Assembly (NCBI RefSeq): GCF_008000815.1
Contig: NZ_CP042806.1
Span: forward strand, 1,612,001 to 1,676,000
Source of the DNA: Terriglobus albidus
GTDB lineage: Bacteria > Acidobacteriota > Terriglobia > Terriglobales > Acidobacteriaceae
Direction: 5' to 3'
Length of the DNA stretch: 64,000 nucleotides
Position 1 is the stretch's first letter. Every line of letters begins with the position of its first letter. This document shows positions 20,331-56,872 of this stretch, piece after piece. Under the pieces are notes generated by a model, which saw nothing but the letters and a program-made list of their open reading frames with translations, was not told where the DNA came from and ran no database searches. The position numbers and the translations under genes were made by a program.

Positions 20331-20445
20331 TAGAGCATTTTCCCTGTTGCTGGGTATCCCGGGAGGAGCGTGCAGCGGCGTTTTCATTGAGGAAAACGCC
20401 CATAGATGCACGAGCCTGCACTACGCCTACAGGAAAAATACTCTA
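20331..20445. repeat. 115-bp MITE-like hairpin element, copy 1
   Basis: Ends TAGAGCATTTTCCCTGT (20331-20347) and ACAGGAAAAATACTCTA (20429-20445) are inverted repeats with 15 of 17 matching and TA at both outer ends. Inside are GGGTATCCC and a hairpin GGCGTTTTC/GAAAACGCC (20377-20400). The minus-strand stop codon TAG of the diguanylate cyclase gene is the outermost triplet of the right end (20443-20445). Copies 2 and 3 are at 23354 and 56757 in the same orientation. Confidence 0.9.
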
Positions 20446-23409
20446 GTCCCCGCTTGGGTAAGAGGTCCAGACGATGCGGTTTCTGCCTGTTTCTTTTGCG
20501 AGATACAGGGCGGTGTCTGCCTGATGCAATAATTCTTTGCTATCGAATGAGTGAAAGGGCCGTAGTGCGGCGGCGCCGAAGCTCATGGTCACATGTACGG
20601 CCTTGTCGTCCACCAGAACGACCGAGCTGGTGATCTGGCGATGAAGGTCGTCGAGTCTGCCTTGTGCCATGTCGATGGGGATGCCTGGCATTACTAGCAG
20701 GAACTCTTCTCCTCCATAGCGCCCCAGGTGGTCAGAGCTGCGGACGAGGCCGTCGAGTGTCTGCGCAACGGAGCGGAGAACTTCGTCGCCGGCAAGGTGA
20801 CCGTAGGTGTCGTTGATCTGCTTGAAGTGATCGATGTCGATCAGCACAACAACCAGGTCCTGTTGTTTACTCCTCGCCTGCGAGATCTCAAGATCCAGAA
20901 TCTCCAGAATGGCGTGGCGGTTGCGGAGTTTCGTCAGGCTGTCAGTGGTCGCCATCTGTTGCAGTGAGAGCTTTGCCTGCGTGAGCAGGCGTTTTTCTTC
21001 TTCGAGGGCATATGTTCTTTCGGCCACCATATTTTCCAGCTTTCTGCGCTGTATGAGCAGGCGATGAAGCCACAGGCGGATGATGCCTGCGATGAGGAGA
21101 AGGAGGGCAATGATCTCCGCGATCTGGACATCGAGACGTCGCCACCAGGGAGGGCGAACGGTGAAGCTGACGGTGGTAACCGGTGAGGACTTGTTCGTAA
21201 ATGGGTCCTCTGCTTTGAGCTCAAAACTGTACGACCCGCCGGGAAGAGCGGTGAACTGTACCTTCTCTCCTTCCGCGGTCTGCCAGGTTTCGTCAAAGCC
21301 GATCAGGCGATAGAGAAGACGCTGGTGTGCGTGATCTTTGTAGGAGAGTGCGGCGAGATAGAAGGTAAGCGGACTCTTAGACCACGGGAGTGCGATGAGA
21401 TCGTTGGCGGAGAGAGTCTTTTCACCGCGTTCGATGGCGACCACTTCGGCGGAGAGCATCGCCGGCTGGAAGAGCGATGCGGGGGCTACGACATGCGAGA
21501 CGCCCTTGCTTGTACCGATCCATACGCTTCCGTCTCTATCTTCATAGAGACCCGCCTGCGATACATCCGGCCATACCAGACCATTGTCCTGACGGAGAAG
21601 GCTCCAGTGGCCATGGTCCAGAACGGCTACTCCCATATCGGTTCCCACCCATAACCAGCCGCGACGATCCATGAGGAGAGCAATGATATGCGCGTCGCGG
21701 AGATCGTCTGGCATGGAGATGCGGTTGGCCGTCAGGATCGAGTTCGCGGGAGATGCCTGCCACAGCCCTGGTGTCTCGCCGCCCAGCCACAGCGTTCCAT
21801 CCGGTGAACATGCGATCTGGCTGAAGCGGGGAGGGTTTGAAGCGTTCTTCACCTCAGGTTTATCCCACGCACCATCGTGCATGCGAAGCGGGCCCAGGTC
21901 ACTGAGGACCCAGATGGTGTGCGAGGGGCCTTCACACGCATTCGGTGTGGGTACATCCCGATCGCCGAGCAGATGGCGGGTCTCGATGACCGGTTCAGGC
22001 ATGCCGGTAGTGTTGGAGGAGCGCAGAGCGTAAAGGCCCTGCATGGTGGTAAACCAGGTCTGCCCGGTTGTGTCATGCAGGATGTGAAAGACCAGCGCTG
22101 TTTTGGTGGCTTGCGTGATTTTGCCTCGAGCCTCGTCAAGACGAAGGATGCCCGTGCCACCCATGGTGCCGACCCAGAGATTGCCGGCATCTCCATCTGC
22201 AAGGCCGGCGATCTCTGCTTTGCCGAGCTCGTGTGGATCGACATCGGAGATCGTGTTGTCGTGTAGCCTCTGCAGGCCACTGTCGGTGCCGAGGTACATG
22301 CCTGCGTGACGGTCTGACAGGAAGGACCAGACTATTTCATTCTTGAGGCCTTGCGCGAAGGTCCAGTTTTCGAGGTATGGATATCCGAGCCACTGTCCAA
22401 GGCCAAGACCTCCGGTACCCATCCATACGTTCCCTTCGCGATCGACGAAGAGCGACGAGAGCGCTTCACCGGGGATGCCGTTGTTTCGGTTGAAGATCTG
22501 CCACTGCTGTCCATCCCAGCGGAGCAGGCTGGTGTCGCTCGATTGAAGGATGCGTCCGTTGGCGTCCTCTGCCAGTGAGAGGAAGAGATGCTCGCGCTCT
22601 TCGCTTGGAGTGCTGGGGCTTCGATCAACGGCGCCGCCGCCAGCGGCAGAGATCTCGACGGTGCGGTAGGCGGACCTGATCCAGATGCTTCCATGTCTGT
22701 CCTGCAGCATGGATTTCCAGGTGTCTTCAGGGACTCCGCGGGAGGCACTCCAGACAGTGATGTTGCCGGCAGACCACTGGCAGACAGCTTTGCCGCAGCC
22801 CATCCAGATGTTGCCCTTGCGGTCCGCGAAGAGAGAGTGAAGTCCACCGATGGACGATCGTTCCGCGGCAGCGATGGTTGCGAGCAGCGGCTTGCCGGTC
22901 CACTGATCCTTTCCGCTTTTTTGGAAGAGATACGGTTCCCGTTTGACCATGGCGAGTATGCGGCCGCCGGGAAGCTTTCCGAGGTTCTGCCCCTGCCATA
23001 TGGAAAGGGGCTGGTTCGCATCCTTCAGCTCAACCAGGTACTGGCCCGAGAGGCGGAAGAGGTGCCCTGTTGTTCCTACCCAGATGTTGCCATCGTCATC
23101 CGCTTGCAGCGAGCTGACGTAGAACTGGCGGAGACCGTCTTCTGTTCCGAACCGTTGAAAATGAGAGCCGTCGAAGCGATAGACGCCATTTTCTGTGCCG
23201 ATCCAGAGATAGCCTTTTGGGTCCTGCGTGACCGCGGTGATCGCAAGATTGGCGAGTCCGGTTTCGTTTGCGTAGAAGCGGACAGGGAATTGCTGCGATT
23301 GGATGTGGGGGACCAAAAGGAGGAGCCACGTGTATGCGATGAGAACGAGACCCAGAGCATTTCTCCTGTTGCTGGGTATCCCGGGAGATGCGTGCAGCGG
23401 CGTTTTCAT
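20443..23409 (-). CDS. Periplasmic-sensing diguanylate cyclase (propeller, Y_Y_Y, GGDEF)
   Basis: 988 residues from ATG 23409. After a signal peptide or anchor (LVLIAYTWLLLLVPHIQS) come Reg_prop beta-propeller repeats (GYLWIGTENGVYRFDG, GNIWVGTTGHLFRLSG and others), a Y_Y_Y domain (about 690-750), a transmembrane helix (IAEIIALLLLIAGIIRLWL), a coiled coil and a GGDEF domain with active GGEEF and an inhibitory RSSD I-site five residues before it. It should make cyclic di-GMP in response to an outside ligand, possibly a sugar polymer as for similar hybrid sensors. The ATG lies in repeat copy 2 and has no ribosome site; a CTG at 23355 behind AGGAG is an alternative start. The stop lies in copy 1. 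Confidence 0.9.
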   Translation of the reverse strand: MKTPLHASPGIPSNRRNALGLVLIAYTWLLLLVPHIQSQQFPVRFYANETGLANLAITAVTQDPKGYLWIGTENGVYRFDGSHFQRFGTEDGLRQFYVSSLQADDDGNIWVGTTGHLFRLSGQYLVELKDANQPLSIWQGQNLGKLPGGRILAMVKREPYLFQKSGKDQWTGKPLLATIAAAERSSIGGLHSLFADRKGNIWMGCGKAVCQWSAGNITVWSASRGVPEDTWKSMLQDRHGSIWIRSAYRTVEISAAGGGAVDRSPSTPSEEREHLFLSLAEDANGRILQSSDTSLLRWDGQQWQIFNRNNGIPGEALSSLFVDREGNVWMGTGGLGLGQWLGYPYLENWTFAQGLKNEIVWSFLSDRHAGMYLGTDSGLQRLHDNTISDVDPHELGKAEIAGLADGDAGNLWVGTMGGTGILRLDEARGKITQATKTALVFHILHDTTGQTWFTTMQGLYALRSSNTTGMPEPVIETRHLLGDRDVPTPNACEGPSHTIWVLSDLGPLRMHDGAWDKPEVKNASNPPRFSQIACSPDGTLWLGGETPGLWQASPANSILTANRISMPDDLRDAHIIALLMDRRGWLWVGTDMGVAVLDHGHWSLLRQDNGLVWPDVSQAGLYEDRDGSVWIGTSKGVSHVVAPASLFQPAMLSAEVVAIERGEKTLSANDLIALPWSKSPLTFYLAALSYKDHAHQRLLYRLIGFDETWQTAEGEKVQFTALPGGSYSFELKAEDPFTNKSSPVTTVSFTVRPPWWRRLDVQIAEIIALLLLIAGIIRLWLHRLLIQRRKLENMVAERTYALEEEKRLLTQAKLSLQQMATTDSLTKLRNRHAILEILDLEISQARSKQQDLVVVLIDIDHFKQINDTYGHLAGDEVLRSVAQTLDGLVRSSDHLGRYGGEEFLLVMPGIPIDMAQGRLDDLHRQITSSVVLVDDKAVHVTMSFGAAALRPFHSFDSKELLHQADTALYLAKETGRNRIVWTSYPSGD

Positions 23410-23467
23410 TGAGGAAAACGCCCATAGATGCACAACCCCCGCACTACACCTACAGGAGAAATGCTCC
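23354..23467. repeat. 115-bp MITE-like hairpin element, copy 2
   Basis: Ends AGAGCATTTCTCCTGT (23354-23369) and ACAGGAGAAATGCTC (23452-23466) pair perfectly over 15 bp. The inner hairpin GGCGTTTTC/GAAAACGCC is kept. Relative to copy 3, two adjacent bases in the left arm changed (TC to CT) with matching changes in the right arm. It overlaps the start of the diguanylate cyclase frame and fills half of the gap to the next gene. Confidence 0.9.
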
Positions 23468-23641
23468 ATCACCCTACGCCGGATGTGCAACTCCGTGGTC
23501 ATCCTCGATGGCATGAGGCAAGTAGCGTATCAAGAGGTTGGATACGAGCCAACATTAATACCTCTTCGGCTTCTGCAGGATGAGGTTTAGAGATAGAGCT
23601 GTCCCGTTTCGGGAGACAGGGGACTCGGTCGGCAGTGTGGT

Positions 23642-24838
23642 TCAGGCCGCAACGGAGGCGGTTGAGGTTTCGGCCTGTTCAGCCGGAATCAGGATCGAAA
23701 AGACAGTTCCGCGATGGTTTGGGGCTGTGGAGCTGCGAACCCGAATCTCCCACCCATTCTTCCTGATCAGTTCCTGCGTGACCCACAGTCCGAGGCCCGT
23801 GCCTGTCTCTCCTTTGGTCGTGACAAAGGGTTCGAATACGGATGGCAGCAACTGCGGATCGATGCCTGACCCTGTATCTGCAATGGTCATACTCAGGTAT
23901 CGGCGGTTCGACAAATTTGGGCTGTGCCACAAACCGATTCGCAGCCTCAGCTTGCCTCCGGTGCGCATGGCATCCAGTGAATTGCCGATAAGATTAGCGA
24001 TCACCTGGCGCAGCTCGCCTGGATTGGCGCAAATAGAAACTACCGGGGAGCGGGTTTCTTTGCTCACGTCGACACGCGCCGCGATCAAACGCGAATGATA
24101 CAGCGTCAACATGGAGTCCAGCACGGCGCTGACATCGACCAGTACCGGCTTATTGGGTTCCCGATAATAGCGCAACGTGTGTTTGGCGATTTCGGTTACG
24201 CGTGCGAGCTCCTGCTCGGCTTGACCGAGGTAACGCTGCCCCGTCTCCGATGGGGTTTCCGAACGCAAGAGATAGAGCAAGTTGGTCACGGACTCCAACG
24301 GATTGTTGATCTCGTGAGCGATACTTGCGGCCAGGCGCCCGGTTACCGCCAGTTTCTCCGCGCGGCGAAGGGCGTCCTGGGCATGCACCATCTGCTCCAT
24401 CTGGTCTCGCACCTGATACTGACGCTGCCGTCCACGCAGCGCGGCTTCAAGTGTGCTGAGCAGGGTTTCCGGCCGCAGGGGCCGCTCCAGTAGAAGTACA
24501 TTGCCGAGCGGGGTCCGCAGTTTGCGTAGGCGCTCACTCTCGGTTGTAACGCGGCCTCCGGTCACCAGAAGAATGACCGGAAAGTCCGACCATGCCGGCT
24601 GATCCTTCAGCACAGATTCCAGATCATGGATGGAGTTTCCCTTCAGTGCTTCTTCGGCGACGATGGCGGCGCCGGCGCCTTTGCCGATGTTCTCGCGCAA
24701 TTCGAAGACAGAGTTCACGACATGGCAGAGTCTGCCCAGTCTCTGCAGAAGAGTAGAGATCAACGACGCATCGCGTCCTGTAGGAGCCAGGACGAGGGTG
24801 CGTGTTTCGTAGGACGTTGTTTCATTCTCGGGGATCAG
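23642..24838 (-). CDS. Sensor histidine kinase with pseudo-receiver domain, CTG start
   Basis: 398 residues when read from CTG at 24838. Residues about 12-135 resemble a receiver fold (RTLVLAPTGRDASLISTLLQ ... FPVILLVTGG ... LLERPLRPETLLSTLEAAL) but the phosphoacceptor Asp position reads AAIVAEEAL, so it is a pseudo-receiver. Then HisKA with phospho-His in AHEINNPLES (about His175) and HATPase with NLIGNSLDA, DTGSGID and GTGLGLWV. No transmembrane helix: cytoplasmic kinase. AGGAGG (24845-24850) is 6 bp before the CTG, and the gene overlaps the end of the KaiC-like gene by 17 bp, so translation is probably coupled. ATGs farther upstream (24931, 24904) lack ribosome sites and lie well inside the KaiC-like gene. 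Confidence 0.85.
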   Translation of the reverse strand: MIPENETTSYETRTLVLAPTGRDASLISTLLQRLGRLCHVVNSVFELRENIGKGAGAAIVAEEALKGNSIHDLESVLKDQPAWSDFPVILLVTGGRVTTESERLRKLRTPLGNVLLLERPLRPETLLSTLEAALRGRQRQYQVRDQMEQMVHAQDALRRAEKLAVTGRLAASIAHEINNPLESVTNLLYLLRSETPSETGQRYLGQAEQELARVTEIAKHTLRYYREPNKPVLVDVSAVLDSMLTLYHSRLIAARVDVSKETRSPVVSICANPGELRQVIANLIGNSLDAMRTGGKLRLRIGLWHSPNLSNRRYLSMTIADTGSGIDPQLLPSVFEPFVTTKGETGTGLGLWVTQELIRKNGWEIRVRSSTAPNHRGTVFSILIPAEQAETSTASVAA

Positions 24839-26384
24839 AAGAATCCTCCTGTAACTTCGAACCGGTGAACGTTGGGTTCCCGCCAAGAACTCCTTCGAAC
24901 TCATGCAGCGGCGGGCCGACCCTGATTTCACCGTTGCCGAAGATCAGCTCACGAATGGTGCGTTCATGCGGCCCGCTCCGTTTCTTTACGACCGAGAGCG
25001 CCTGACGGATGGATCCGGCGCGCTCGAAATAACGAAACAGCAGAACCGTGTCGGCCAGATAACTTATGTCAATAGGAGTATTGGTGACGCCGATGAAGCC
25101 GTGTTGTGCGAGCGTGAGAAGCGTTGCGATACCCTGCTGTCCCAGATAGGCCAATAATTCGTGCAGTTGCATGGCGAGGAACTGTTCATGCGGCATGGCG
25201 TTCAGAAATCCGTTCATGCTGTCGATGACCACCATGCGAAGGTTTTGTTCATCCACCAGATTTCTGATTCGGGAGACAAGCTCTCCGGGGGAGAGCTCCA
25301 CGGGATCGATCTGTTGAATCCCAAGCATGCCGCTCTCCAGCAGATCGGTGGGATCCATACCCAGGCCGTGTGCCCGCTCGATCAATGTCGCGAGCGTCTC
25401 ATCGAAGGTAAATATAAGTGCTTTCTCGCCTCGCTGGGCGGCGGAGACTGCATATCGAAGCGCGATGGTCGATTTACCGCAGCCAGCCGGGCCGATGAGA
25501 AGCGTGCTGGTTCCCGTATCGATGCCTCCGCGAAAGAGGTCATCCAGCTCCTTCAGGCCGCTTGGAACATGCGTCCTCTTAAAGCCGGGTTTGTGTTCCG
25601 CGGCAACCAGGCGAGGGTAAATCTCGATCCCGCCGGTCTTGATGGTGTAGTCATGGTAGCCTTCGCGGAAATGGGAGCCGCGAAGCTTGTGGACCTCCAT
25701 ACGGCGTCTTTTGACGCCAAAATCCCGTTCCAGGCTTTGCATCTTGATGACGCCGTGCGCGATGCTCTGGAGCTGCAGATCGTCGACATTTCCTTCGGCG
25801 GTTCGATCGTCCAGCAGAAGGACAGTGCAGTTGCGGCCCGCAAAATATCGCTTCAGTGCGAGGATCTGGCGGCGGTATTTCAGTGGGTCGCGGGCGATCA
25901 TGCGGAACTCTGAAAGCGAGTCAAAGACGACGCGTTGCGGCCTGATCTCCTCCACCTGCTTGAGGATGGCCGTCATGGTATCCGCTAGCTCGACATCCGA
26001 TGGATAAAAGACGGTGTACTCCGCTTCCGGTCCAAGGTCTTCGTCGGAAGAGATCATCTCGTAGATGGTGATCGACCGCAGGGACCAACCATGGGAGGCC
26101 CCGACTTGTTCCAGCTCGCTCCTGGATTCCGACAAAGTGATGTACATCCCTCCTTCACCTCGTTCCACTCCTTCGAGCAGAAACTGTAATGCGAGTGTAG
26201 TTTTGCCGGTTCCTGGATCCCCCTCGACAAGATAAAGATGTCCTTTGGGCAGGCCACCGTTCAGAATGTCATCTAAGCCGTCGACACCCGTAGTGAGCCT
26301 GATTTCCTTGTTTGCAGAGTCGTTGCTTGAGGAAAGGAACTGCGGCTTCCCTGGCTTGGCGTTCACTGGAAGCGTTGCACTCAT
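24822..26384 (-). CDS. KaiC-like double RecA-domain ATPase
   Basis: 520 residues, about the length of cyanobacterial KaiC (519). Two KaiC domains with P-loops GDPGTGKTT (55-63) and GPAGCGKST (298-306), Walker B VVFDSLSEFR and MVVIDSMNGF. The ATG at 26384 follows GGAGG at 6 bp. The region equivalent to the KaiC autophosphorylation pair Ser431-Thr432 reads IDISYLADT, so the second site appears to be Tyr. No kaiA or kaiB is present; such KaiC homologues outside cyanobacteria are usually paired with histidine kinases, as here. Likely an ATP-dependent signalling partner of the downstream kinase rather than a clock. Confidence 0.9.
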   Translation of the reverse strand: MSATLPVNAKPGKPQFLSSSNDSANKEIRLTTGVDGLDDILNGGLPKGHLYLVEGDPGTGKTTLALQFLLEGVERGEGGMYITLSESRSELEQVGASHGWSLRSITIYEMISSDEDLGPEAEYTVFYPSDVELADTMTAILKQVEEIRPQRVVFDSLSEFRMIARDPLKYRRQILALKRYFAGRNCTVLLLDDRTAEGNVDDLQLQSIAHGVIKMQSLERDFGVKRRRMEVHKLRGSHFREGYHDYTIKTGGIEIYPRLVAAEHKPGFKRTHVPSGLKELDDLFRGGIDTGTSTLLIGPAGCGKSTIALRYAVSAAQRGEKALIFTFDETLATLIERAHGLGMDPTDLLESGMLGIQQIDPVELSPGELVSRIRNLVDEQNLRMVVIDSMNGFLNAMPHEQFLAMQLHELLAYLGQQGIATLLTLAQHGFIGVTNTPIDISYLADTVLLFRYFERAGSIRQALSVVKKRSGPHERTIRELIFGNGEIRVGPPLHEFEGVLGGNPTFTGSKLQEDSSDPRE

Positions 26385-26847
26385 ACCATCCCTCCTGGGG
26401 CGCTTAGATGTCATTTTTGCGGGAAAGTCTGCCAAAGGCATTTTGACTATTCAATTTGCGACTCACCCGGCTGACCATGATTCCGCTGTTCCGCAGGTGG
26501 CCGGGACGGGCTGGAGGGGCAGAAACGGAAGGGAGACCGCGCCAGCCGCTGGGTTTCCCACTGCCGCATGGACTCCAGAGACGCGAGCAGGACATCTCCA
26601 GCGCGGCGGAGCCGAGATGTGGCTCATGGTTGCGGCAACTGAAGCTGATGCAACGAACGTCTTACTCATGCTGATATTGTTGAGATTCCCGCGGCATTTC
26701 TACTGGATGCTCTCGCTGTGCTTGTCTGAGCTGGATGGCGCTCTTGAACTCCAGATGAAGCTGCCAGGTATGGCCAGCCCGGATGCCACTGCGTGACGAG
26801 ATAGGTATCCGGCAACTGTTCTTGTCTTTTGAAGAGAGAAGAATCCG
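26385..26847. other. Divergent gap of 463 bp
   Basis: Separates the KaiC-like gene (minus) from the secreted protein (plus). Short frames here have no family resemblance. It presumably holds both promoters, but I see no convincing -35/-10 pair. Confidence 0.4.
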
Positions 26848-27873
26848 ATGATCTTAAAACGCCTGAGGGGCGCAGTCGTTTTGGTGTTCTTCCTGTTTCC
26901 CCTTCTCGAAACGTATGGACAGCCCGGTATAGGAAAGCCAGGCGCGCTCGATACGGATCGGGACGGTTTAAGCGATCGAGAAGAAGGTGACTTACTGGAG
27001 AGGTATTCTCCGCTCTTTATGATCAGCCGTGACGACTGCTCCGATCGGCCTGCAAAGTTTCTCGAGGGCGCCCGAAGTCCTACTGTCGTGGAAGACGATG
27101 GAACGATCTATGGTCAGGTATTTCCTCGGAAGGGACAGCCTGACGAGGTGGAGCTGCACTACTACCATCTATGGCGTCGAGATTGCGGCGAGATGGGACA
27201 TCGTCTCGATGCAGAACATGTATCGGTCCTGGTGAGAACTGGAGCGAGCATTGCAGATGCAAAGGCTCTGTACTGGTATGCCGCCGCGCACGAGGACACA
27301 ATCTGCGACGCAAGCCACCTCGCTCGTGCGGCCACGCTACATGCGGAAGAGCATGGAGGCACGATCTGGATTTCGGAGGGAAAGCACGCTTCCTTTTTGT
27401 CGGAGGCCATGTGCACCCATGGGTGTGGCGGCGACCGATGTGCACGGATGAAACCGCTGAAGGCCAAACAGATTATCAACGTGGGCGAGGCGGATACCCC
27501 CATGAACGGTATGGTCTGGCTTAACTCCATCGAATGGCCGCTGAGCGGCAAACTAAGTCGAAGCGACTTTCCGGAGATGCGCGTGGCGAGAGTCGAGCGA
27601 TTGCCGGAGACAGATATCGTCTGGGCGAATCCTGCGAAACGTCCCGCGCAGGCCACCATCCTTGGTGCGAATGCGGGGATTAGCGGAGCGGCGACGGGCA
27701 TAAGGGCTACAGATACAGCTCTGGATGTTGCGAACAGCAGCACGTCTTCCGCGCTGGATACAACCACTGGCAAGACCGGGAAGGCCCTGAAGGGTTCTTC
27801 CAGGAATGTCTGGAAAGCTGTGAAGAAGAGTGTTCAGAAGACGGGCGAAGTTCTCAATGGGAAGCGGGAATGA
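26848..27873 (+). CDS. Secreted protein with EF-hand-like calcium loop, unknown function
   Basis: 341 residues. Signal peptide (LRGAVVLVFFLFPLLETYG), then ALDTDRDGLSDREEGDLLERY, a thrombospondin-3/EF-hand-like loop with DxDxDGxxDxxE spacing that should bind calcium. The central domain (about 50-230) has paired cysteines (DDCSDRP, RRDCGEM, TICDAS, MCTHGCGGDRC) and His/Glu-rich segments HLARAATLHAEEHGG and SEGKHASF that could bind metal. The C-terminal 70 residues are Ala/Thr/Lys-rich and low complexity. Similar central domains occur in secreted proteins annotated as hypothetical; I do not assign a function. Ribosome site GAAGAGAGAAG. Confidence 0.7.
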   Translation: MILKRLRGAVVLVFFLFPLLETYGQPGIGKPGALDTDRDGLSDREEGDLLERYSPLFMISRDDCSDRPAKFLEGARSPTVVEDDGTIYGQVFPRKGQPDEVELHYYHLWRRDCGEMGHRLDAEHVSVLVRTGASIADAKALYWYAAAHEDTICDASHLARAATLHAEEHGGTIWISEGKHASFLSEAMCTHGCGGDRCARMKPLKAKQIINVGEADTPMNGMVWLNSIEWPLSGKLSRSDFPEMRVARVERLPETDIVWANPAKRPAQATILGANAGISGAATGIRATDTALDVANSSTSSALDTTTGKTGKALKGSSRNVWKAVKKSVQKTGEVLNGKRE

Positions 27874-27921
27874 AGAGCAAGTCGTCAGAGATACAACGCT
27901 GACAAACAAAAGTCGCTTTGT

Positions 27922-29477: not shown

Positions 29478-29590
29478 AGGCGTTCTCCAGAGTTGATGTG
29501 TTGTATCTGTTTCAGTGCAAGTATAGCGAAGACACGGTCTTTGACCGTACGCATGGAAGCGGCGTCAGAGGCTTGTTCGAGGAAGTAGTG

Positions 29591-41691: not shown

Positions 41692-41750
41692 GCTTCAGCC
41701 GTGCCGAATTGACGTGAGAGTACGTGCGGCTTTATTGATTCCTGTATAAC

Positions 41751-42828
41751 TAAAGTCCTATTTGAGGCGTAGAAGAAGAGGGCTGTGTTGCACGAAGGAT
41801 CGTAGCAGGGATTGTTTGTGTTGCAAGGATCGGGCGGCATGTCTTGCTTCAACCGCCAAGTCGTCTATGTCGAAGAAGGCGCGGTTGGCGAGGGGATTGA
41901 TCTTGGTCCATGACCAGAGATACTCGACCGGGTTTAGCTCAGGAGCATAGGGAGGGAAGAAGGAGGTCCGCAGGCGTTGTGCACCGGCAAGCCACCGGCT
42001 GGTTTGCTTGGAGCGGTGGGCATTGAGCCTGTCCCAGATCAAGCACCAGTTGACGGCCAACTCGTGGTTGAGTGCGCGCAGGAAGTCGATCACGCGTGTG
42101 GAATCGACATCGCCTCCCGGATAGAGACGGAAGTAGAGTCGAACCTCGTCACGCTCCGGAGAAACACATAGTGCAGCGATAGCAGAGACTTTCTTGTGAT
42201 GCCGTCCGCGCTGATAGATCACCGGTGTTTGGCCGGAAGGAGCCCAACTGCGCCGCACCAAGGGAGCCAGCAAAAAGCCGCTCTCATCGAGAAAAACCAG
42301 CCAGGCTTTCAGCCGGTGCGCTTTTTTTTGAGAGCGGGCCAGTCCTGTTTGACCCATTGCTGGATCGCCTCTTCATCGCGTTCAACAGCTTTGCGGACTG
42401 GCTTTTGTGGACTCCAGTGCATCCCATGCAACAGGCGGCAAACATGATCGACATGGTATTGAACCCCGAAGGTTCGCTCGATGTAGTCGGCTACCCGGGG
42501 ACAAGTCCATAGATCAGTCGGAAAACCAGCAGAGACAGCCCCCTTGAGAAGTTGCTTCTCCAGCTTTTGCCGGTCCCTCGCGCTCAGACGCGGTGGCCTG
42601 CCGGTCGCCCGAGTCGCCCCTAACGCCTCACGGCCTCCTTCGGTCCACGCATGCTTCCAACGCCGCACGCTGCGCGGCTCTACTCCCAGAACACGCGCGA
42701 TCTCAGCTTGGGTAATGCCTTGTTCGATGAGTGTGATCGCGCGTTGACGCTTGCGCTCCAACTCCTCCGGACTGCCGACTGGACGCATCATGCCTCCTCG
42801 ACTGCTCGGATAATAGAATAGGACATTA
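41751..42828 (-). mobile_element. IS630-family insertion sequence
   Basis: About 1.08 kb, bounded by TA dinucleotides (41751 and 42827) as expected for IS630. The ends carry short inverted repeats A(A/T)GTCCTATT: AAGTCCTATT on the left and ATGTCCTATT on the right (inverted). It contains two overlapping transposase frames. It lies 52 bp beyond the IS481 target duplication. Confidence 0.85.
41758..42791 (-). CDS. IS630-family transposase made by -1 frameshifting (orfA+orfB)
   Basis: orfA (42309-42791, ATG after GAGGAGG) encodes the HTH region (AEIARVLGVEPRSVRRWKHAW and a winged helix); orfB (to 41758) encodes the DDE domain: FLDESGF, LIWDRLNAHRS and ELNPVEYLW. The frames overlap and are joined at a run of eight A on the coding strand in CTCAAAAAAAAGCGC. 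Slipping back one base changes ...LKKKRTG-stop into ...KKAHRLKAW, giving one full-length protein of about 344 residues. This is the usual programmed -1 arrangement of the family, so it need not be a mutation. Confidence 0.88.
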
Positions 42829-42902
42829 TTTGTGCAGGAAGCAATAGCCGCAGAGGTCGAATTCATTCTGGTCGAAGTACAACATTTCGCCCCGCATTTT
42901 CT

Positions 42903-49423: not shown

Positions 49424-49621
49424 GGCGGTAGACCTCGTACAAGTCTTGGTTGCAGGTGGTTCGTTTTGTATCTCTAGAGAAGGGAGCTTCCCTCCGGGAC
49501 AGCATTGCTCCGAGTCTACTACACGAAAATCTCACCTTCGTGGCCGATTGGATAGACGCAGATTGATGGAGCGGCGTTGTAACCTGCGCGGTTGCCGACA
49601 GACGTCAGTGACAAGAAAAAA

Positions 49622-49647
49622 CTCCGGATCCACGAAGGGATCCGGAG
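49622..49647 (-). terminator. Intrinsic terminator of the BON lipoprotein gene
   Basis: CTCCGGATCC / GGATCCGGAG 10-bp stem; read on the minus strand it ends in TTTTTTCTTG. 26 bp after the stop. Confidence 0.9.
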
Positions 49648-49673
49648 CCTTTAATGAAACGTCTTAGAACGAG

Positions 49674-50744
49674 TTATTGCATCGGGTGACGCGTGGAGTC
49701 ATCGTTGCTCGATGCTCCCGCGGGTGTTGCCTGGACCGTGAACGCGTTGGTCAGCTGGAAGCGGATGAGCGACTCAGTGGGGATCTGTACCTGCTGACCT
49801 TTGGTGATGGCGTTGACACCTGCGCCACCTGCGCCGCCGGCGGCTGCACCAATGGCAGCGCCCTTACCCCCGCCGAAGATACCGCCGAGGATGGCTCCAG
49901 CTGCTGCGCCGACACCGGCCTTGGTGGCGGTGTTCTTACCGCGTCCGGCGCCTTCTTTGCTGAAGGCTTCGGTGGAGACCGCGATACGCTCGCCACGGCG
50001 GGAGACGCTGGTCAGCTCAATGGAGAGCAGTGAGCTTCCCTTGAAGTGAGCCGCATCTTTCGCTTCCACAACGCGTCCGCTGACCGGAGTTCCCTGACGC
50101 AGCGCAACCCATCCATCGACGATGATGTCGTTGGAGATGACGCCCGTGAAGGAGTCACCCGTTTGAGTGGTCGCGGAGTCCAGACCCTGCGTGATGCGTA
50201 CCGGAAGGAAAGTTCCGGCAGCAACCGTCACAGTCTTTGTCGTAGGCGCCGGCGGCGGCGGTGGTGGAGCCTGAACAACAGGTGCCGCAGCTTGTCTTAC
50301 AGGGGCCGGTGCTGGTGCTGGGGCCGGAGCAGGCTGACGCTCGACGATGACGGGCTTCGGCTTCTTCTCGCGCTCGGGCCGTACCGGAGCGGGTTCAGGA
50401 GCGGCGGCAACCGGCGCCGGCGCTGGGGCCGGAGCCTGAACGTTCAGGTTGTTGATGACGGTCTTGACGCCGGGAATAGCAGCCGCGTCATTGGAGGCCA
50501 ACGTTTTGGCAGCCGCATTGCTGACATTACCGCTCAGCGTGGCGACGCCGCCCGAGACGCCTACCTGAATCTGTTCCGCGCTCAGTGCGGAGTCGGAGGT
50601 GATCCTGCTCTGGATGGAGGAGGCCAGGCTGTTGTCATCCGGAGGAGCCGGAGCATCGGCCTTCTTGCATCCAGTTACAGCGATGGCCAGAACAAGCGCC
50701 AGGCCGGTGGTGCGAAGAGTGTGGTGGATATGTTCAAAATTCAT
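49674..50744 (-). CDS. BON-domain lipoprotein with proline-alanine linker and glycine zipper
   Basis: 356 residues from ATG 50744, preceded by AAGGAG. Lipobox AVTGC (Cys about 26) then a BON domain (about 40-105: SIQSRITSDSALSAEQIQV ... VATLSGNVSNAAA). Next a PA-rich linker with runs of (PA)n and PPPPPP, a beta domain (LPVRITQGLDSATTQTGDSF), and a glycine-zipper segment (GVGAAAGAILGGIFGGGKG). BON domains bind phospholipid; the zipper may insert into the outer membrane. Probably an envelope-stabilising lipoprotein. The frame is open to 50822 but without lipobox logic. Confidence 0.85.
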   Translation of the reverse strand: MNFEHIHHTLRTTGLALVLAIAVTGCKKADAPAPPDDNSLASSIQSRITSDSALSAEQIQVGVSGGVATLSGNVSNAAAKTLASNDAAAIPGVKTVINNLNVQAPAPAPAPVAAAPEPAPVRPEREKKPKPVIVERQPAPAPAPAPAPVRQAAAPVVQAPPPPPPAPTTKTVTVAAGTFLPVRITQGLDSATTQTGDSFTGVISNDIIVDGWVALRQGTPVSGRVVEAKDAAHFKGSSLLSIELTSVSRRGERIAVSTEAFSKEGAGRGKNTATKAGVGAAAGAILGGIFGGGKGAAIGAAAGGAGGAGVNAITKGQQVQIPTESLIRFQLTNAFTVQATPAGASSNDDSTRHPMQ

Positions 50745-51036
50745 GGAAATCCCTCTCCTTACGCGGGATGTGCGTCCTGATCTGCGATTTCCCGGCGAGC
50801 TCCGGGGAGTATGTGTCGTCACTCATCTTAGACGCCAAGTTTATCCCTGATGTTTCTGTCATAAGAAAGGGAATGTTATGGGTAAACCTCGCCGATGCGA
50901 GTAGCATCCTCATTAAGCAGGAGCTTTGTGCGCGATACAGGCGAGGTTTGCCGCCCGGAGGGGGATTTGCTACCATCCGATTCTCCGCAACTTGAAGGTT
51001 CCACACACGAATCTCGCTCAGGAAAGAGGGAAGCAA

Positions 51037-51408
51037 ATGGCAGAGAATGATAACGGCTCGAACGGAATTGGCTGGTTTCTTGCAGGACTTGGCATCGGCG
51101 CGCTGATTGGTGTGCTGTACGCTCCAAAGTCCGGGAAAGAGACGCGTGAAGAGCTCGCGCTTTCCGCCAAGGAAGCCCGCGACAAGGCCAATCAATATGT
51201 GGAGCGCGGTAAGGAACAGTTGGATGAGTACATTGACCGCAGCCGCCAGTACTATGAGCGCGGCCGCAGTCAGTGGACCGAGTATGTGGAGAAGGGGAAA
51301 GACTTTCTGCACGAGCAGCAGGACAAGGTAGCTGCGGCTGTAGACGCGGGGAAGCAGGCGTATAGCCGGGCGGCCGTCGAAGAACCTTCCAACGACCACT
51401 CAGCGTAA
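51037..51408 (+). CDS. YtxH domain protein
   Basis: 123 residues. One transmembrane segment with glycine spacing (GWFLAGLGIGALIGVLYAPKSG) defines YtxH, followed by KETREELALSAKEARDKAN and an amphipathic coiled coil to the end. The ATG has AGAGGGAAG before it. YtxH proteins are small stress-related membrane proteins; the next gene is YtxG-like, the same pairing as in the Bacillus ytxGHJ operon. Confidence 0.88.
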   Translation: MAENDNGSNGIGWFLAGLGIGALIGVLYAPKSGKETREELALSAKEARDKANQYVERGKEQLDEYIDRSRQYYERGRSQWTEYVEKGKDFLHEQQDKVAAAVDAGKQAYSRAAVEEPSNDHSA

Positions 51409-51483
51409 ACTCAGCTTGCATGGGGCTCCGCATCGAGGCGCGGAGCCCTGTCACTATTTCCGGAAAGAAAGCGCGGCCTACCC

Positions 51484-52044
51484 ATGCTTACAGCAGCCAT
51501 TCTTTGGCAGAGCCAACTGGCAACGGACCATTCCAACCTGCTTATCACTTTCATCGCGGTGGTTGCCGCGGCCGTCGTGCTGCAGGCTTTTGTGCTGATT
51601 GGGATGGCTGTAGGCGCCTATAAGACGCAGAAGCAGTTGCTCAGCATCGCCCAGGAGCTGCAGGCCAAGGCCTTCCCCATCATGGACAACATCACGCGCG
51701 TGGTAGATAAGGCTGCGCCGAAGGTGGACCGCATTACCGACAACCTCGTCGAGACGACCGACGTTCTACGCGACAAGGCACATGAGCTTGACATTGTTGT
51801 CTCTGAGGTTGCTGCACGTACACGTGCCCAGGTAGCCCGGGTTGATAACGCGGTAACCGACAGCCTCAATACCGTCGGCCGCGTGACCGCCGAGGTGCAT
51901 CACGCCGTCATGGTGCCGGTGCGTCATATCTCCGGCGTGATCCATGGGATCAAGGCGGGATTGGAGACGTTGGTCGGACGCGCCAAGACGTGGAGAGATG
52001 CTGCCGCGTCGGTTGCGACGGGCGTGGGCGATACCGAAGATTAG
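51484..52044 (+). CDS. DUF948/YtxG-like membrane protein
   Basis: 186 residues. One transmembrane helix (LLITFIAVVAAAVVLQAFVLIGMAV, about 19-43) then a long helical region with heptad pattern (MDNITRVVDKAAPKVDRITD ... VDNAVTDSLNTVGRVTAEVH), as in DUF948/YtxG. 75 bp after the YtxH gene, so probably cotranscribed. Role likely linked to envelope stress; specific function unknown. Confidence 0.75.
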   Translation: MLTAAILWQSQLATDHSNLLITFIAVVAAAVVLQAFVLIGMAVGAYKTQKQLLSIAQELQAKAFPIMDNITRVVDKAAPKVDRITDNLVETTDVLRDKAHELDIVVSEVAARTRAQVARVDNAVTDSLNTVGRVTAEVHHAVMVPVRHISGVIHGIKAGLETLVGRAKTWRDAAASVATGVGDTED

Positions 52045-52057
52045 GGCCGTATTGCAC

Positions 52058-52130
52058 GGGAGCCCCACGGCTCCCACCCAGATTCGCGCAACGCGCGAAT
52101 CTCCCACGCATGCTTCGCATGCACGGGGGA
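52058..52130. repeat. Cluster of three short hairpins
   Basis: GGGAGCC/GGCTCCC, GATTCGCG/CGCGAATC and GCATGC/GCATGC stems follow one another in the gap between convergent genes. They could terminate both transcripts or be degraded repeats. Confidence 0.5.
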
Positions 52131-52156
52131 CCCAATTCCGTGGCAGGCGTTTCAGC

Positions 52157-53281
52157 TTAGCGGATCCAGCCGCCGCCCACGACTTCGTCGTCCTGATAAA
52201 AAACTGCGGCCTGGCCGGGGGTGACGGCGCGTTGTGGTTCGTCGAAGATGACTTCCACTTCATCATCACTAACCCTCTGCAGAGTCGCCCATGCGGGTTC
52301 GTGGCGGTGGCGGATCTTTGCCTGCACACGCATCGGTTCGCCGAGTGAAGCGATGGAGATCCAGTTCAGATCGCCGACACGCATGGTGTGTGTCAGCAGC
52401 TCATCTTCCGTGCCGACGGTGACGCGGTGCGAATCTGGATCAATCTGCAGCACATAGAACGGATTCGGTTGATGTCCCTTCAGCCGCTGTTGTATGCCCT
52501 TGCGCTGACCAACGGTGAAGTGATGCACGCCCTCATGCGCTCCGACGACCTCTCCAGTGCTGGTGACCAGTTCGCCGGATGTGTCTGGAAGGGGCTGCTC
52601 CTGCTCTTCCAGATAGGCTTCCATGAACAGCTTGTAATCGCCTCCGGGGATGAAGCAGATCTCCTGCGAGTCCGGCTTCTTCGCGAGAGCGAGGGAATAG
52701 CCTTCGGCGAGCTGACGCACCTCGGGCTTGGTCATATGGCCCAGGGGGAAGAGTGTGCGCGAGAGCTGTTCCTGGGTAAGACCGAAGAGGAAGTAGGTCT
52801 GGTCCTTGGCCTTGTCCGCCGGCCGCTTGAGAATCCAGCGATCTCGCACCGGATCGTACTCGTTACGGGCGTAGTGACCGGTGGCAATGCGCTCGGCTCC
52901 GATGGAGCGGGCGGTCAGGAGCAACTGGTCGAACTTCAGGTGGTTGTTACACAGGGTGCAGGGAATGGGCGTGCGTCCATGCAGATACTCGCGGACAAAG
53001 GGCTGCACGACATCGCGCTCGAAGCGCGCCTCCTGGTTGACGACGTAGTACGGAATACCGATCTGCTCGGCCACGCGGCGAGCGTCGTAGACGTCATCGA
53101 TCGAACAGCAGCGGCCTTGAACAGCCTCGGGCATGCCCTCGTGTCCTGAGAGACGGCGCTGATTCCATAACTGCAGGGTAAGGCCGATGACGGTGTGTCC
53201 ATCGGCGCATAGCATCGCTGCGACGGTGGAGGAATCAACTCCTCCAGACATGGCGACGGCAATGGTCTCCTGCTGACTCAT
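52157..53281 (-). CDS. mnmA: tRNA-specific 2-thiouridylase MnmA
   Basis: 374 residues, standard length. PP-loop AMSGGVDSSTVAA at the N-terminus binds ATP; catalytic Cys pair in IPCTLCNN (about 110) and QEICFIPGGD (about 210); GHYAR motif. It makes s2U34 in Lys, Glu and Gln tRNAs with sulfur from a cysteine desulfurase, whose gene lies 219 bp upstream in the same direction. Confidence 0.97.
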   Translation of the reverse strand: MSQQETIAVAMSGGVDSSTVAAMLCADGHTVIGLTLQLWNQRRLSGHEGMPEAVQGRCCSIDDVYDARRVAEQIGIPYYVVNQEARFERDVVQPFVREYLHGRTPIPCTLCNNHLKFDQLLLTARSIGAERIATGHYARNEYDPVRDRWILKRPADKAKDQTYFLFGLTQEQLSRTLFPLGHMTKPEVRQLAEGYSLALAKKPDSQEICFIPGGDYKLFMEAYLEEQEQPLPDTSGELVTSTGEVVGAHEGVHHFTVGQRKGIQQRLKGHQPNPFYVLQIDPDSHRVTVGTEDELLTHTMRVGDLNWISIASLGEPMRVQAKIRHRHEPAWATLQRVSDDEVEVIFDEPQRAVTPGQAAVFYQDDEVVGGGWIR

Positions 53282-53330
53282 ACTTCTCTATTTTCGCCGA
53301 TTTTCGAGGGAAAATGTGAGCTTCTGTGGT

Positions 53331-53465
53331 TTCCTAACCCACCCTAACTCCGTGAGGGTGGGGGCACCCGGTACGATAAGTACCATCAGCCTTGGGCAGC
53401 GCCCCAAGGCTCCTAAGTTCCCAACCTGGGTGCCCCACCCTCGCAACGCCAGGGTGGGTTAGGAA
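53331..53465. repeat. Large palindromic element between mnmA and the desulfurase
   Basis: Left arm 53331-53369 (TTCCTAACCCACCCT ... GAGGGTGGGGGCACCC) and right arm 53428-53465 (GGGTGCCCCACCCTC ... AGGGTGGGTTAGGAA) are inverted repeats of about 38 bp with an imperfect middle. The loop has a CCTTGGG/CCCAAGG stem. A diverged copy is at 55448-55565. Confidence 0.85.
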
Positions 53466-53500
53466 TACCTCAAATTCCTAATAACGAATTGGTCGATACG

Positions 53501-54685
53501 CTATACCGCGACTGCCGACTTCCATGCTGGAGAAAGCGCTCGGAGGCGGGAGACGACTTCCGGGATGATTGCCAGGACGGCGTCGATCTCGTCTTCGGTA
53601 GTCGTCCGCGAGAGCGAGAAGCGGATGCTGGCGCGGGAGCGTTCGGGCGAAAGTCCCATCGCCAGAAGAACATGCGAGGGATCGGTGGCGCCCGATTGGC
53701 AGGCTGAACCGCCACTGACAGCAATACCCTTCAGATCGAGGGCGATGACCAGGGCTTCGGCTTCAAGGTGCGCGAAGTACAGGTTGGTCGTATTGACGAC
53801 ACGGTCCGCACCTTCGCCATTGATCTCAGTCTGCGGAACTTCGGAGAGGATGCCAGCTTCAAGACGGTCGCGCAGGCGGGCAAGCTGTTGCGGGCCACCT
53901 GTCTGGAGATATTCCTGTGCAAGTTCGGCGGCCCTTCCCAGACCAACGATGCCCGGCAGGTTTTCGGTGCCGGCACGGCGCTGGCGCTCATGGCTTCCGC
54001 CGTAGAGCAACGGGCGTAGATGGAGGCCTCGGCGCACATACAGCGCGCCTGTTCCCTGGGGAGCGTACATCTTATGCCCAGAGATGGAGAGCAGATCGAC
54101 GCCGAGATCCTTAGCGTTGATCTCAAGCTTGCCGGCGGCCTGGACAGCATCGGTGTGGAAGAGTGCTCCGCCTTCGTGAGCGATGGCCGCGAGCTCTTTG
54201 ATCGGTTGTATGACACCCGTCTCGTTGTTCGCCAGCATGATGGAGACCAGGCGCGTATTCTGCCGCATGGCAGAGCGCAGGCTCTCAGGGGAGATGATGC
54301 CGGCGCGGTCAGGGCGCAGGACCGTGAGCTCGACGCCGCGTCGTTCCAGCTCTTCGGCGGCATTCAGAATGGCATGGTGTTCGACGGCGCTGGTGATCAG
54401 ATGGTCGCCGCGCGCGATCTCACTGGCGGGCTGCAGTGCGCCAAAGAGAGCAAGGTTGTCGCTTTCCGTGCCTCCGCTGGTGAAGACCACCTCCGCCGGG
54501 CGGCAGTGCAGCAGTGCCGCCACAGATGCGCGCGCATGTTCCACCGCAGCTCGGGCCTGCTGTCCCGGCTGATGGATCGACGAGGCATTGCCAAAGCGCT
54601 GCGTGTAGAAGGGGAGCATTGCCTCCAGCACTTCGGGCAGCACCTGCGTGGTCGCGTTGGCATCCAGATAAATCCGGCGCATCAC
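53501..54685 (-). CDS. iscS: Cysteine desulfurase (NifS/IscS type)
   Basis: 394 residues. PLP lysine at Lys205 in SGHKMYAP, catalytic Cys329 in GSACQSG, and the VEHHAIL and HTDAVQAAG segments of the family. Provides persulfide sulfur for Fe-S assembly and thiolation. Position next to mnmA suggests it serves tRNA thiolation, as with NifZ in Bacillus; whether it also feeds Fe-S assembly cannot be told. Confidence 0.93.
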   Translation of the reverse strand: MMRRIYLDANATTQVLPEVLEAMLPFYTQRFGNASSIHQPGQQARAAVEHARASVAALLHCRPAEVVFTSGGTESDNLALFGALQPASEIARGDHLITSAVEHHAILNAAEELERRGVELTVLRPDRAGIISPESLRSAMRQNTRLVSIMLANNETGVIQPIKELAAIAHEGGALFHTDAVQAAGKLEINAKDLGVDLLSISGHKMYAPQGTGALYVRRGLHLRPLLYGGSHERQRRAGTENLPGIVGLGRAAELAQEYLQTGGPQQLARLRDRLEAGILSEVPQTEINGEGADRVVNTTNLYFAHLEAEALVIALDLKGIAVSGGSACQSGATDPSHVLLAMGLSPERSRASIRFSLSRTTTEDEIDAVLAIIPEVVSRLRALSPAWKSAVAV

Positions 54686-54756
54686 TCCATTCTAAGAGAT
54701 GACGCCCTTCGATACGGATGCTAGCCTGATTGCGCGCAATACCCAAAGGAGAGGCA

Positions 54757-55362
54757 ATGAAAAGTAAGATCTTGGCGATCGCGATGGCGGCGCTGTGCTC
54801 CACAACCATGTTCGGACAGGCGCCCCCGGCGGCACCTCAGGGCCCTGTAGAACCGGCAAAGGCGGCAGACTTCATGCTCTCCAACACGGAGAAGGATTTC
54901 ATCGCGCTGATTGAGGCCATGCCGGCGGACAAGTACAGCTTTGCTCCCTCAGCAAGCCTCTTCAAGGCGCCCGAGTCAGTTGATTTCAAAGGAGTACGGA
55001 CGTTCGCTCAGTTGGTAACCCATACCATCCAGGCAAATTACTTCTACTGGGCTCCGGTGCTGGGTGAAAAGCCCGATCAGGAAAAGCTCGCCACGATCGG
55101 CAAGCTGACCGAGAAGGATGCCATCGTAAAGGCAGCGAAGGAGTCGATGGAATACGGCCATAAGGCTGCTGCTTCGATTACGGCTGCGAATGCCTTTGAG
55201 GGAGCGGGCCGCGGTGCGGCGTCGACGAAGTTGATCAGCCTTGCAGGTGGCGTGATCCACATTCGCGATGAGTACGGACAGATGGTCGTGTGGGGTCGTA
55301 TGGTCGGTGTAGCCCCTCCGGCAAGCAGCGGACGCCCTCCGGCGAATCCGGCGAATAAGTAG
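54757..55362 (+). CDS. Secreted DinB-like protein
   Basis: 201 residues from ATG 54757 (AAAGGAG upstream). Signal peptide (SKILAIAMAALCSTTMFGQ), then a DinB_2-type helical bundle: MLSNTEKDFIALIEAMPADKYSFAP, HTIQANYFYWAPVL with a His ligand, and HIRDEYGQMVVWGRM. The usual C-terminal HxxHH motif is reduced to HIRDEYGQ, so metal binding is doubtful. Exported DinB proteins are numerous in this phylum. Followed by a terminator. Confidence 0.82.
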   Translation: MKSKILAIAMAALCSTTMFGQAPPAAPQGPVEPAKAADFMLSNTEKDFIALIEAMPADKYSFAPSASLFKAPESVDFKGVRTFAQLVTHTIQANYFYWAPVLGEKPDQEKLATIGKLTEKDAIVKAAKESMEYGHKAAASITAANAFEGAGRGAASTKLISLAGGVIHIRDEYGQMVVWGRMVGVAPPASSGRPPANPANK

Positions 55363-55380
55363 ATTGTTTTGAGCATATGA

Positions 55381-55406
55381 GAGGGCACGGCGACCGCTGT
55401 GCCCTC
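55381..55406 (+). terminator. Terminator of the secreted DinB-like gene
   Basis: GAGGGCAC / GTGCCCTC stem (with inner CGG/CCG) followed by TTTG, 18 bp after the stop. Confidence 0.7.
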
Positions 55407-55447
55407 TTTGCATTGCGGCGTATGTAGTCTGTCCAGGATGCTTTGGT

Positions 55448-55565
55448 GTTCCCCGCCCACCCTACCGTTGCGAGGGGCACCCCGGCTTGGCGAGCCATAG
55501 AGCGCACTGCTGGTGCTTATATTGTCCGGGTGCCCACTCTCACGGAGTTCGGGTGGGCAAGGAAC
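55448..55565. repeat. Large palindromic element, second copy
   Basis: GTTCCCCGCCCACCCT ... GAGGGGCACCCCGG and CCGGGTGCCCACTCTC ... TTCGGGTGGGCAAGGAAC pair as inverted arms around about 45 bp. Same plan as 53331-53465 but with many changes in both arms. Confidence 0.75.
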
Positions 55566-55607
55566 GCCCAAAAATCCCAATTAACTTGCGACAAATATGT
55601 CGATACA

Positions 55608-56666
55608 TCAGTAGGAGCGGTGCTTGAACGGATTGCGCAGGGAACAGGTCACAGATATGCCGGTGGTGTCGTACTTCAGTCTCAGGCTGCGGCTGTAGAA
55701 GCCGGAGATGATGACATTGCGATTCACGGGAATCTCGAGGATGGTATCGACGCCATTATCTTCTGCGAGACTGACACCAACTGCACGCTCTACCCATGCA
55801 TGATTCACCCGCACGGGACGGTAGATCTTCTGGTCGCCGATCGGGAGATTTTCGTAGGCCGAGGCCGTGAAGGCACTGCGGAACGGTAAAAGAAACTGAG
55901 AGCCGGCCTGGAAGTGTGCAATGTGGCCGATGGTCGTGTAGGTCCGTTGAATCTCGCGATCGATCAGACTGGAAGTGTCGCCAATGCCGGTCTCGACAAA
56001 GGGAGCGACCCAATGGGTACTGTAGTCCACCCGGTGGTTGAAGTTGTACGTGACTTGACCGTTGCCGAGGCCGTAGCTGTCAGCTCCCGTAGGAAGGGAC
56101 ATGGTTGCCGAACCTGTATAGGTGAAGGCGCGGCCGAAGTCAGTGGTGTAACGCGCTGCGAGCGAGGTGTCTCCAACGAGGTGACGCAGCGTCTCGAGTT
56201 TGTAGGTCGTCGTGGAAATGATGGAAGGTTCGCTGGCGCTGCCTGGCGGCGGAGGAGCTGCGGTCGTGGTTGTGTTGGCGACGTAGCTGTGGATGCTGAA
56301 GAACGCCGGAACCGAAAGGTCTACGGACCAGTGACGATTGAAGCGATACGCCACGACCGGGGTCGTCATCTGGGTCCATCCAAGGACAGAGTTATGGATC
56401 GAGGAGGAGATGAGACTAAAACTCAGAACGTTGCGATCCTGGGGTTGGAACTGCTCCGGATCATAGCCTTCCCGTGCGACAGCCATTGCCAGTTCAGCAG
56501 CTACTGCATCATCAAGAGCATCATCTGCCGTCGAGCTGGAATTAGTGAGGGAGGAACTGACAGCCGTTGAGGCAGGAACCTGCGCCGATAGGCTCTGTGC
56601 GCGTGCGACAGAGACAAGGCCGATGGGCAACAGGCAAAGACCCGCAATCGTTCGAACGACGTGCAA
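55608..56666 (-). CDS. Putative outer-membrane beta-barrel protein
   Basis: 352 residues. Signal peptide (RTIAGLCLLPIGLVSVARA), a Ser/Thr/Ala-rich stretch, then alternating aromatic-hydrophobic strands (TPVVAYRFNRHWSVDLSVPAFF, YTGSATMSLPTGADSYGLG, HWVAPFVETGIGD) typical of transporter-like or MetA-pathway phenol-degradation-type barrels. Ends with RNPFKHRSY rather than a C-terminal Phe. Function unknown; strands and aromatic belts support outer-membrane location. Confidence 0.7.
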   Translation of the reverse strand: MHVVRTIAGLCLLPIGLVSVARAQSLSAQVPASTAVSSSLTNSSSTADDALDDAVAAELAMAVAREGYDPEQFQPQDRNVLSFSLISSSIHNSVLGWTQMTTPVVAYRFNRHWSVDLSVPAFFSIHSYVANTTTTAAPPPPGSASEPSIISTTTYKLETLRHLVGDTSLAARYTTDFGRAFTYTGSATMSLPTGADSYGLGNGQVTYNFNHRVDYSTHWVAPFVETGIGDTSSLIDREIQRTYTTIGHIAHFQAGSQFLLPFRSAFTASAYENLPIGDQKIYRPVRVNHAWVERAVGVSLAEDNGVDTILEIPVNRNVIISGFYSRSLRLKYDTTGISVTCSLRNPFKHRSY

Positions 56667-56756
56667 ATAGGTACTCCAGGGGGACCTAGAGGAAGGCTAC
56701 CCCGGGGCTGCGGGGAATGGCAACGAAAATCGCGGAGGAGATTTCCTCCGGCTGGT

Positions 56757-56872
56757 TAGAGCATTTTCCCTGTTACTGGGTATCCCGGAAGCGGAGTGGA
56801 GATGCGTTTTCATCGCGGAAAACGCCCATAGATGCGGAAGCCCCACACTACACCTACAGGGAAAATGCTTTA
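56757..56872. repeat. 115-bp MITE-like hairpin element, copy 3
   Basis: Ends TAGAGCATTTTCCCTGT (56757-56773) and ACAGGGAAAATGCTTTA (56856-56872), inner hairpin GCGTTTTC/GAAAACGC, TA at both ends. The right end abuts a duplicated tail of the citrate synthase gene, whose TAA is formed by the last three bases (56870-56872). Confidence 0.9.

Follow-up and report, generated by a model that had tools for sequence, protein, structure and literature searches.

Several families of short bacterial repeats have been described that resemble the subject of this analysis, a repeat of ~116 bp that is very probably a miniature inverted-repeat transposable element (MITE), three copies of which lie in a 64,000-nucleotide stretch of a Terriglobus genome (contig NZ_CP042806.1, positions 1,612,001 to 1,676,000; hereafter the window). 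The closest known system is RUP of pneumococcus, a 107-bp repeat described as intergenic and present in about 110 copies, with IS630-Spn1 as its proposed mover (PMC2229807, PMC3049150). The two are alike in size, in the TA target and in terminal inverted repeats (TIRs) resembling those of IS630 insertion sequences (ISs); they differ in phylum and, compared by description, in sequence, and no partner was detected in the home genome of the Terriglobus element. The descriptions of RUP that we consulted make no mention of stop codons at gene ends. ERIC (also IRU or RU-1; 127 bp) of enterobacteria shares TIRs, a terminal TA, TA duplication and a stable stem–loop (PMC2229807, PMC2759123), but its orientation is reported to matter for mRNA stability, whereas the element described here is randomly oriented relative to genes. 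The Correia or NEMIS repeats of Neisseria (107 and 155 bp) are also small TIR-bearing MITEs with a terminal TA, in another host and with TIRs of 24 bp (PMC2229807). The likeness to RUP, ERIC and Correia rests on their described features.

Other repeats are reported to provide stop codons. BOX, which differs from our element in being modular and in having another proposed partner, contributes the stop codon at the gene 3′ end in 36 of 58 overlapping coding sequences, without strong evidence of truncation (PMC3049150). Repetitive extragenic palindromes (REPs) of the GTAG type are said often to supply a TAG stop (PMC3733652), so the supply of stops by a repeat is not unprecedented, and single MITEs that alter the stop at a gene 3′ end have already been reported (PMC6382973, PMC2759123, PMC5896051). 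REPs are, however, palindromes of 20–40 bp that are often tied to Y1 transposases, unlike a TA-inserting MITE of IS630 type. In the literature that we searched, no MITE of Acidobacteria was found named; the one paper found with both the MITE phrase and Terriglobus (PMC8841776) has that phrase solely in a reference on eudicots.

The three copies lie on the plus strand of the window at 20331..20445, 23353..23468 and 56757..56872, and they align over the element with no large gaps. An initial annotation of the window had reported copies at these places (23354-23467 for the second) with inverted ends and an inner hairpin common to all, and this observation is confirmed. In copy 1 the left arm occupies 20331..20347, the inner hairpin 20377..20400 and the right arm 20429..20445; the inner hairpins of copies 2 and 3 lie at 23399..23422 and 56804..56825. 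TA is present at both tips of copies 1 and 3, as was correctly noted, and CA at both tips of copy 2. The family numbers several hundred copies, of which these three are only a small fraction, and chance can therefore be excluded. The interpretation placed on them was partly borne out: its transposon part holds, and its folding part does not hold as stated.

We consider it very likely that the element is a non-autonomous DNA transposon with the following mode of spread. An IS630-family transposase of the DDE type would recognize the TAGAGCATTTTC-type ends and insert the element into TA dinucleotides, with duplication of the TA. The element starts with TAG on both strands, so that a stop codon (TAA or TAG) with an insertion in its TA would be re-formed. 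Both ends would have to suit one transposase while element lineages diverge, and the matching between the arms most likely stems from this requirement, perhaps with a contribution from one end being copied onto the other, and not from selection in place on RNA folding.

The home genome (G000) is a single contig of 6,405,582 bases. A first look across it gave 328 candidates, of which 40 were scored. From the 24 copies in a 400-kb sample (twenty 20-kb stretches, nearly evenly spaced) and the 46 that score at least 40 bits within 964 kb around the window, we estimate roughly 300–380 copies in all. With ~116 bp bounded by 17-bp arms as TIRs, they have no room for a transposase gene. The element is also present in T. 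albidus DSM 26559 (hereafter T. albidus), whose colinear segments of >1.5 kb are ~82–94% identical to those of the home genome, and in other Acidobacteria: 5 of 150 genomes of the bacterial family, the home genome included, match at E≤1e-6, and a scan of public genomes with the inner core gave at least 120 stretches, all 120 listed bearing titles of Acidobacteria. Among 73 home-genome and 121 T. albidus copies that were fetched, the nearest copy in the same genome is at a median 92% and at most 97% identical, which suggests that the latest burst was not very recent.

Evidence for the target comes from orthologous sites with and without the element, compared between 884 kb of the home genome and 800 kb of T. 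albidus. The orthologous site is empty for 14 of 47 home-genome copies and for 26 of 63 T. albidus copies, and 9/47 and 8/63, respectively, were counted as shared; the remainder had no flank match, showed another arrangement, were partial or scored <40 bits (four copies per genome set aside for low score, and three and five as partial). Recognizable TA...TA bounds are present in 19 of the 40 copies with an empty site, and 15 of these 19 scorable sites read flank-TA-flank with no more than 3 mismatches in 12 flank positions. The target TA is duplicated on insertion. Copies are also found within the TA of other copies, as head-to-tail pairs with one common TA and as nested insertions. The base preceding the TA is C in 42/80 and G in 5/80 cases (40 non-stop sites, both strands read).

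Relatives carry insertion sequences of IS630 type whose ends are of the same kind. The first fragments with matching ends were seen at three loci (L285, L288 and L289), and IS630 transposases with matching ends occur in 56 of 398 genomes of the family at E≤1e-20, with no match at that threshold in the home genome or in T. albidus. One locus from the same genus (L320) holds a complete element. Complete elements with TA-GAGC-type ends measure 996–1058 bp, based on the 12 of 37 loci with one clear end pair; end pairs were picked on the six terminal bases, which left two candidates at 2 loci and none at 23, and these loci were set aside. Their protein matches PF13358 (DDE_3, Pfam) and NF033545 (IS630 family transposase, NCBIfam). 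These Acidobacteriaceae elements thus share the end type with the MITE and differ from it in being ~1.0 kb long and in carrying a DDE_3 transposase. Their left end resembles the right end of the MITE, to which it is nearer than to the MITE left end in 15/15 comparisons. Together with the TA duplication, IS630 elements with such ends in relatives point to an IS630-type MITE like the pneumococcal RUP, and bear out the initial suggestion of TA-target transposition. Judged from the sequences, the element was probably once moved by an IS630-type enzyme.

Candidate partners closer to home were tried and rejected. The genome has two IS630 matches of this kind, the one in the window (DDE_3 match at 41857-42300, minus strand) included, and both loci lack element-like ends, in agreement with the view taken in the initial annotation that this IS is not the partner. 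The transposases matching PF01609 (15 matches) have no solo element-like end at their loci. Solo ends were also examined at fetched loci and in the home genome, T. albidus and three relatives. No autonomous element was seen among them, although the pattern of one scan would overlook ends whose likeness to the MITE lies further inward; the solo ends represent short derivatives left by deletion, ends that are decayed or due to chance, and in one case a segment carrying a gene. Tiny derivatives of ~35 and 21 bp with little beyond the arms lie around position 1501 of loci L237 and L254. In T. albidus (L091, 5870-7634), element-like ends in inverted orientation, with 1 and 2 mismatches in 17 positions, bound a stretch of 1765 bp that contains a gene of the TIGR03118 family and in which no transposase was seen; it is perhaps a captured gene. 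In YF4.bin40 (L289, around 1284-1410), a MITE copy has an IS630 end placed directly in its terminal TA.

The distribution of the element relative to genes is strongly skewed toward stop codons. Across 2.16 Mb of the two genomes, 141 copies score at least 40 bits, and they were placed against genes that a script had predicted from codon usage; the genomes have some copies in common, and the 141 are not fully independent. All but one (140/141) lie outside genes. In 55 of the 141 the TAG or TAA stop codon of a neighboring gene starts exactly at the TA of the element, whereas the stop is elsewhere inside the element in 1 case and within 60 nt outside it in 25. Chance would give 12 such copies, or 18.4 when the TA context is weighted from non-stop copies; stops constitute 8.8% of gene-sparing TA sites, and the excess has p=1.8e-22. 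Where the ortholog of a stop copy is empty (13 cases), the orthologous site is a native stop in 12 and lies inside a gene in none; for 28 non-stop copies with an empty ortholog, 5 of the orthologous sites are stops. A test free of gene calls gives the same picture: of 175 long open frames running into 333 near-full copies, 144 have the TA starting a codon, against 10 and 21 in the other frames, and the TA-codon frame leads in every genome with at least 20 copies. Such a frame precedes 90 of the 215 copies from the two Terriglobus genomes, compared with 13% of 12,049 control TA sites (1630, 705 and 798 in the three frames).

Copy 1 of the window is one of these cases. Its right tip is the TAG stop codon (20443-20445, entirely within the copy) of a minus-strand open reading frame (ORF) with a GGDEF (diguanylate cyclase) domain at 20443..23514, the codon being composed of the terminal TA and the adjoining G of the element. 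The ORF as listed is probably too long, because its start lies beyond copy 2 and the frame hence reads through that copy. Copy 3 lies 50 bp from the 3′ end of another minus-strand ORF (56923-58068), which we take to encode a citrate synthase-like protein.

The excess at stops may reflect survival rather than targeting, if insertions at other intergenic positions are lost because they disrupt terminators, promoters or ribosome sites, and we give this explanation an even chance. Divergent gaps are depleted (12 copies vs 32 expected), TA sites far from gene 3′ ends are under-used (53 copies vs 98 expected) and those no more than 60 nt from a gene end hold only slightly more copies than expected (33 vs 24.7); in addition, the TA context, with C before and G after, accounts for part of the excess. 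Convergent gaps, however, lack promoters of the flanking genes and still favor stop TAs, of which 16/395 are filled compared with 15/1826 other TAs (p=1.7e-5, context unweighted; 16 stop copies vs 7.3 expected when context is weighted). The share of stops is 4/8 among older shared copies and 13/41 among copies with an empty ortholog, which in these small numbers is no clear trend with age. It is also possible, with somewhat less than an even chance in our estimate, that an IS630-type transposase prefers stops or that the TAG tips were shaped for harmless colonization of stops, which would make the element a self-healing MITE that homes to gene ends across Acidobacteria.

We turn to the paired changes in the arms, which the initial annotation read as selection on folding or cruciform structure. 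The TC/CT swap between copies 2 and 3, with its matching change in the right arm, is real. The claim that pairing is kept holds for this swap and fails for copy 1, whose arms are mismatched (left TTTTCCC, right GGAAAAAT), and thus for the set of three; in copy 3 the first pair of the inner hairpin is broken. Covariation is nevertheless strong in copies from across the genomes, with 242 complementary double changes at the 15 outer pairs of 314 copies, compared with 50.7 expected. The 322 one-sided arm mismatches in the same copies divide into 112 AC, 106 GT and 104 others; these near-equal counts of AC and GT give no sign of RNA pairing on one strand.

Arm matching is most likely a property of transposon ends. 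In 12 IS630 elements, positions 7–17 of the two ends agree at 71% within an element and at 43% between elements (0 of 20000 permutations as high). An earlier contrast of 80% within vs 57% between, from 15 elements, was biased, because ends had been picked partly on arm similarity. An alternative origin is mutational and without selection, by templated repair such as quasi-palindrome correction or copying from one end to the other. For 195 copies, a tree built on the inner region implies 34 double complementary changes and 200 single breaks, and 7 of the 34 are transversions in both arms at once, as templated repair would allow; equal AC and GT mismatches also suit a process at the level of DNA. 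Templated repair should, however, show in place in copies at the same site in the two genomes, and there the changes are mostly one-sided (24/26). The same-site set consists of 11 pairs, left from 117 home-genome copies after removal of 6 scoring <40 bits, 15 duplicates, 3 at edges, 46 without a flank match, 10 classed as other, 6 complex and 20 empty. Only 2 of its 26 changed arm pairs are complementary, one from a site with different subfamilies and the other from a decayed copy; an eight-pair version, with one pair dropped as non-orthologous, had given 0/13. We therefore regard templated repair as an unlikely main cause of the matching.

It appears less likely still that the element is retained for its fold as RNA or DNA, such as a 3′-terminal hairpin on mRNAs, with arm changes that compensate to preserve that fold. 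The six strands of the three window copies do fold with z-scores of -3.8 to -7.2, many copies lie directly at stop codons, and for REPs a predominance of sites between convergent or co-directional genes has been taken to indicate transcription of most of them (PMC3733652). Besides the arm covariation, the inner stem has 17 complementary double changes compared with 1.2 expected; 15 of them fall at one pair, the pair that differs in a second subfamily. In same-site copies the inner stem changed less than the spacers (7/194 vs 81/612, p=6e-5), as did the left arm (10/185, p=0.002). The inner stem is not significantly slower than flanking DNA, however (87/1281, p=0.11), the difference between the left arm and the right arm (20/177) is at p=0.056 in the 11 pairs, having looked stronger in the eight-pair set, and same-site pairs may include converted copies; slowness of the inner stem may result from selection in place or from exchange between copies. 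Further points against a selected fold are that AC and GT mismatches are about equal in the inner stem (23 and 22) as in the arms, that IS630 elements with ends 1 kb apart display the same end matching, and that no match was found in the window at the Rfam gathering score. Orientation is without bias, with 47 copies in the same and 51 in the opposite direction in tandem gaps, and 26 and 29 at stop codons. Selection on folding, as initially proposed, is thus not supported.

The second subfamily has a different inner hairpin (GCCGTTTTC/GAAAACGGC), itself a paired stem change, with copies in the home genome (1609680-1609793 and 2196320) and at loci L039 (10937-11051) and L044 (7512-7616). At one TA site (position 952761 in the home genome and 355783 in T. 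albidus, in joined stretches) the two genomes carry different subfamilies, which suggests gene conversion or repeated insertion.

We consider it very improbable that the element is a REP or REPIN moved by a REP-associated (RAYT-type, Y1) tyrosine transposase, despite its high copy number, palindromic form and place near gene 3′ ends, the TAG-supplying habit of GTAG REPs, tyrosine transposases of that group reported in Acidobacteria including T. saanensis (PMC3733652) and seven Y1_Tnp matches in the home genome, because the TA duplication and IS630-like ends point to a DDE enzyme and only 2 of the 7 Y1_Tnp loci (3.2–3.3 kb each) hold a copy, about the number expected from one copy per 17–21 kb and hence no sign of a RAYT partner. 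The window IS630 (41696-42850) and two IS types of the PF01609 group (loci L258-L270 and L391-L397) lie in or beside palindromes CGGCTGAA/TTCAGCCG or similar ones. Their positions suggest that these palindromes are an insertion hot spot, and the palindromes may be the REPs of the seven Y1_Tnp genes.

Several observations weigh against the IS630-type MITE explanation and have to be set beside its support. No partner was detected in the home genome, and mobilization is judged from relatives. The MITE left end is, in its inner part, nearer to the IS right end in just 1/15 comparisons, so only one inner end is clearly inherited. Of the 40 empty sites, 21 were not scorable for TA, and the remaining 19 include 4 that disagree with the TA pattern. 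The inner stem is only 1.3–1.8% variable per site, compared with 10–20% in the two main spacers (copies >70 bits), and a plain deletion derivative would not need such conservation; in Terriglobus copies >70 bits the arms vary at 5–8% and positions 71–79 at 7–8%. In 108 Terriglobus copies there is a mild excess of AC over GT mismatches (49 and 37), and the 34 double and 200 single changes of the tree are not clearly different in rate from the 2/26 of same-site copies.

Transposition by an IS630-type enzyme nonetheless remains the explanation that we consider very likely, and it makes the element an IS630-type MITE family with several hundred members in the two Terriglobus genomes, in neither of which a matching transposase was detected. 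Relative to earlier reports, what is new is the host group, the IS630 relatives and the evidence from filled and empty sites and from reading frames for insertion into native stops. The 1-kb transposons show the same end matching, which cautions against taking paired changes in inverted repeats as immediate evidence of selection on RNA. With numbers and controls in hand for filled and empty sites, target choice and survival become separable by experiment.

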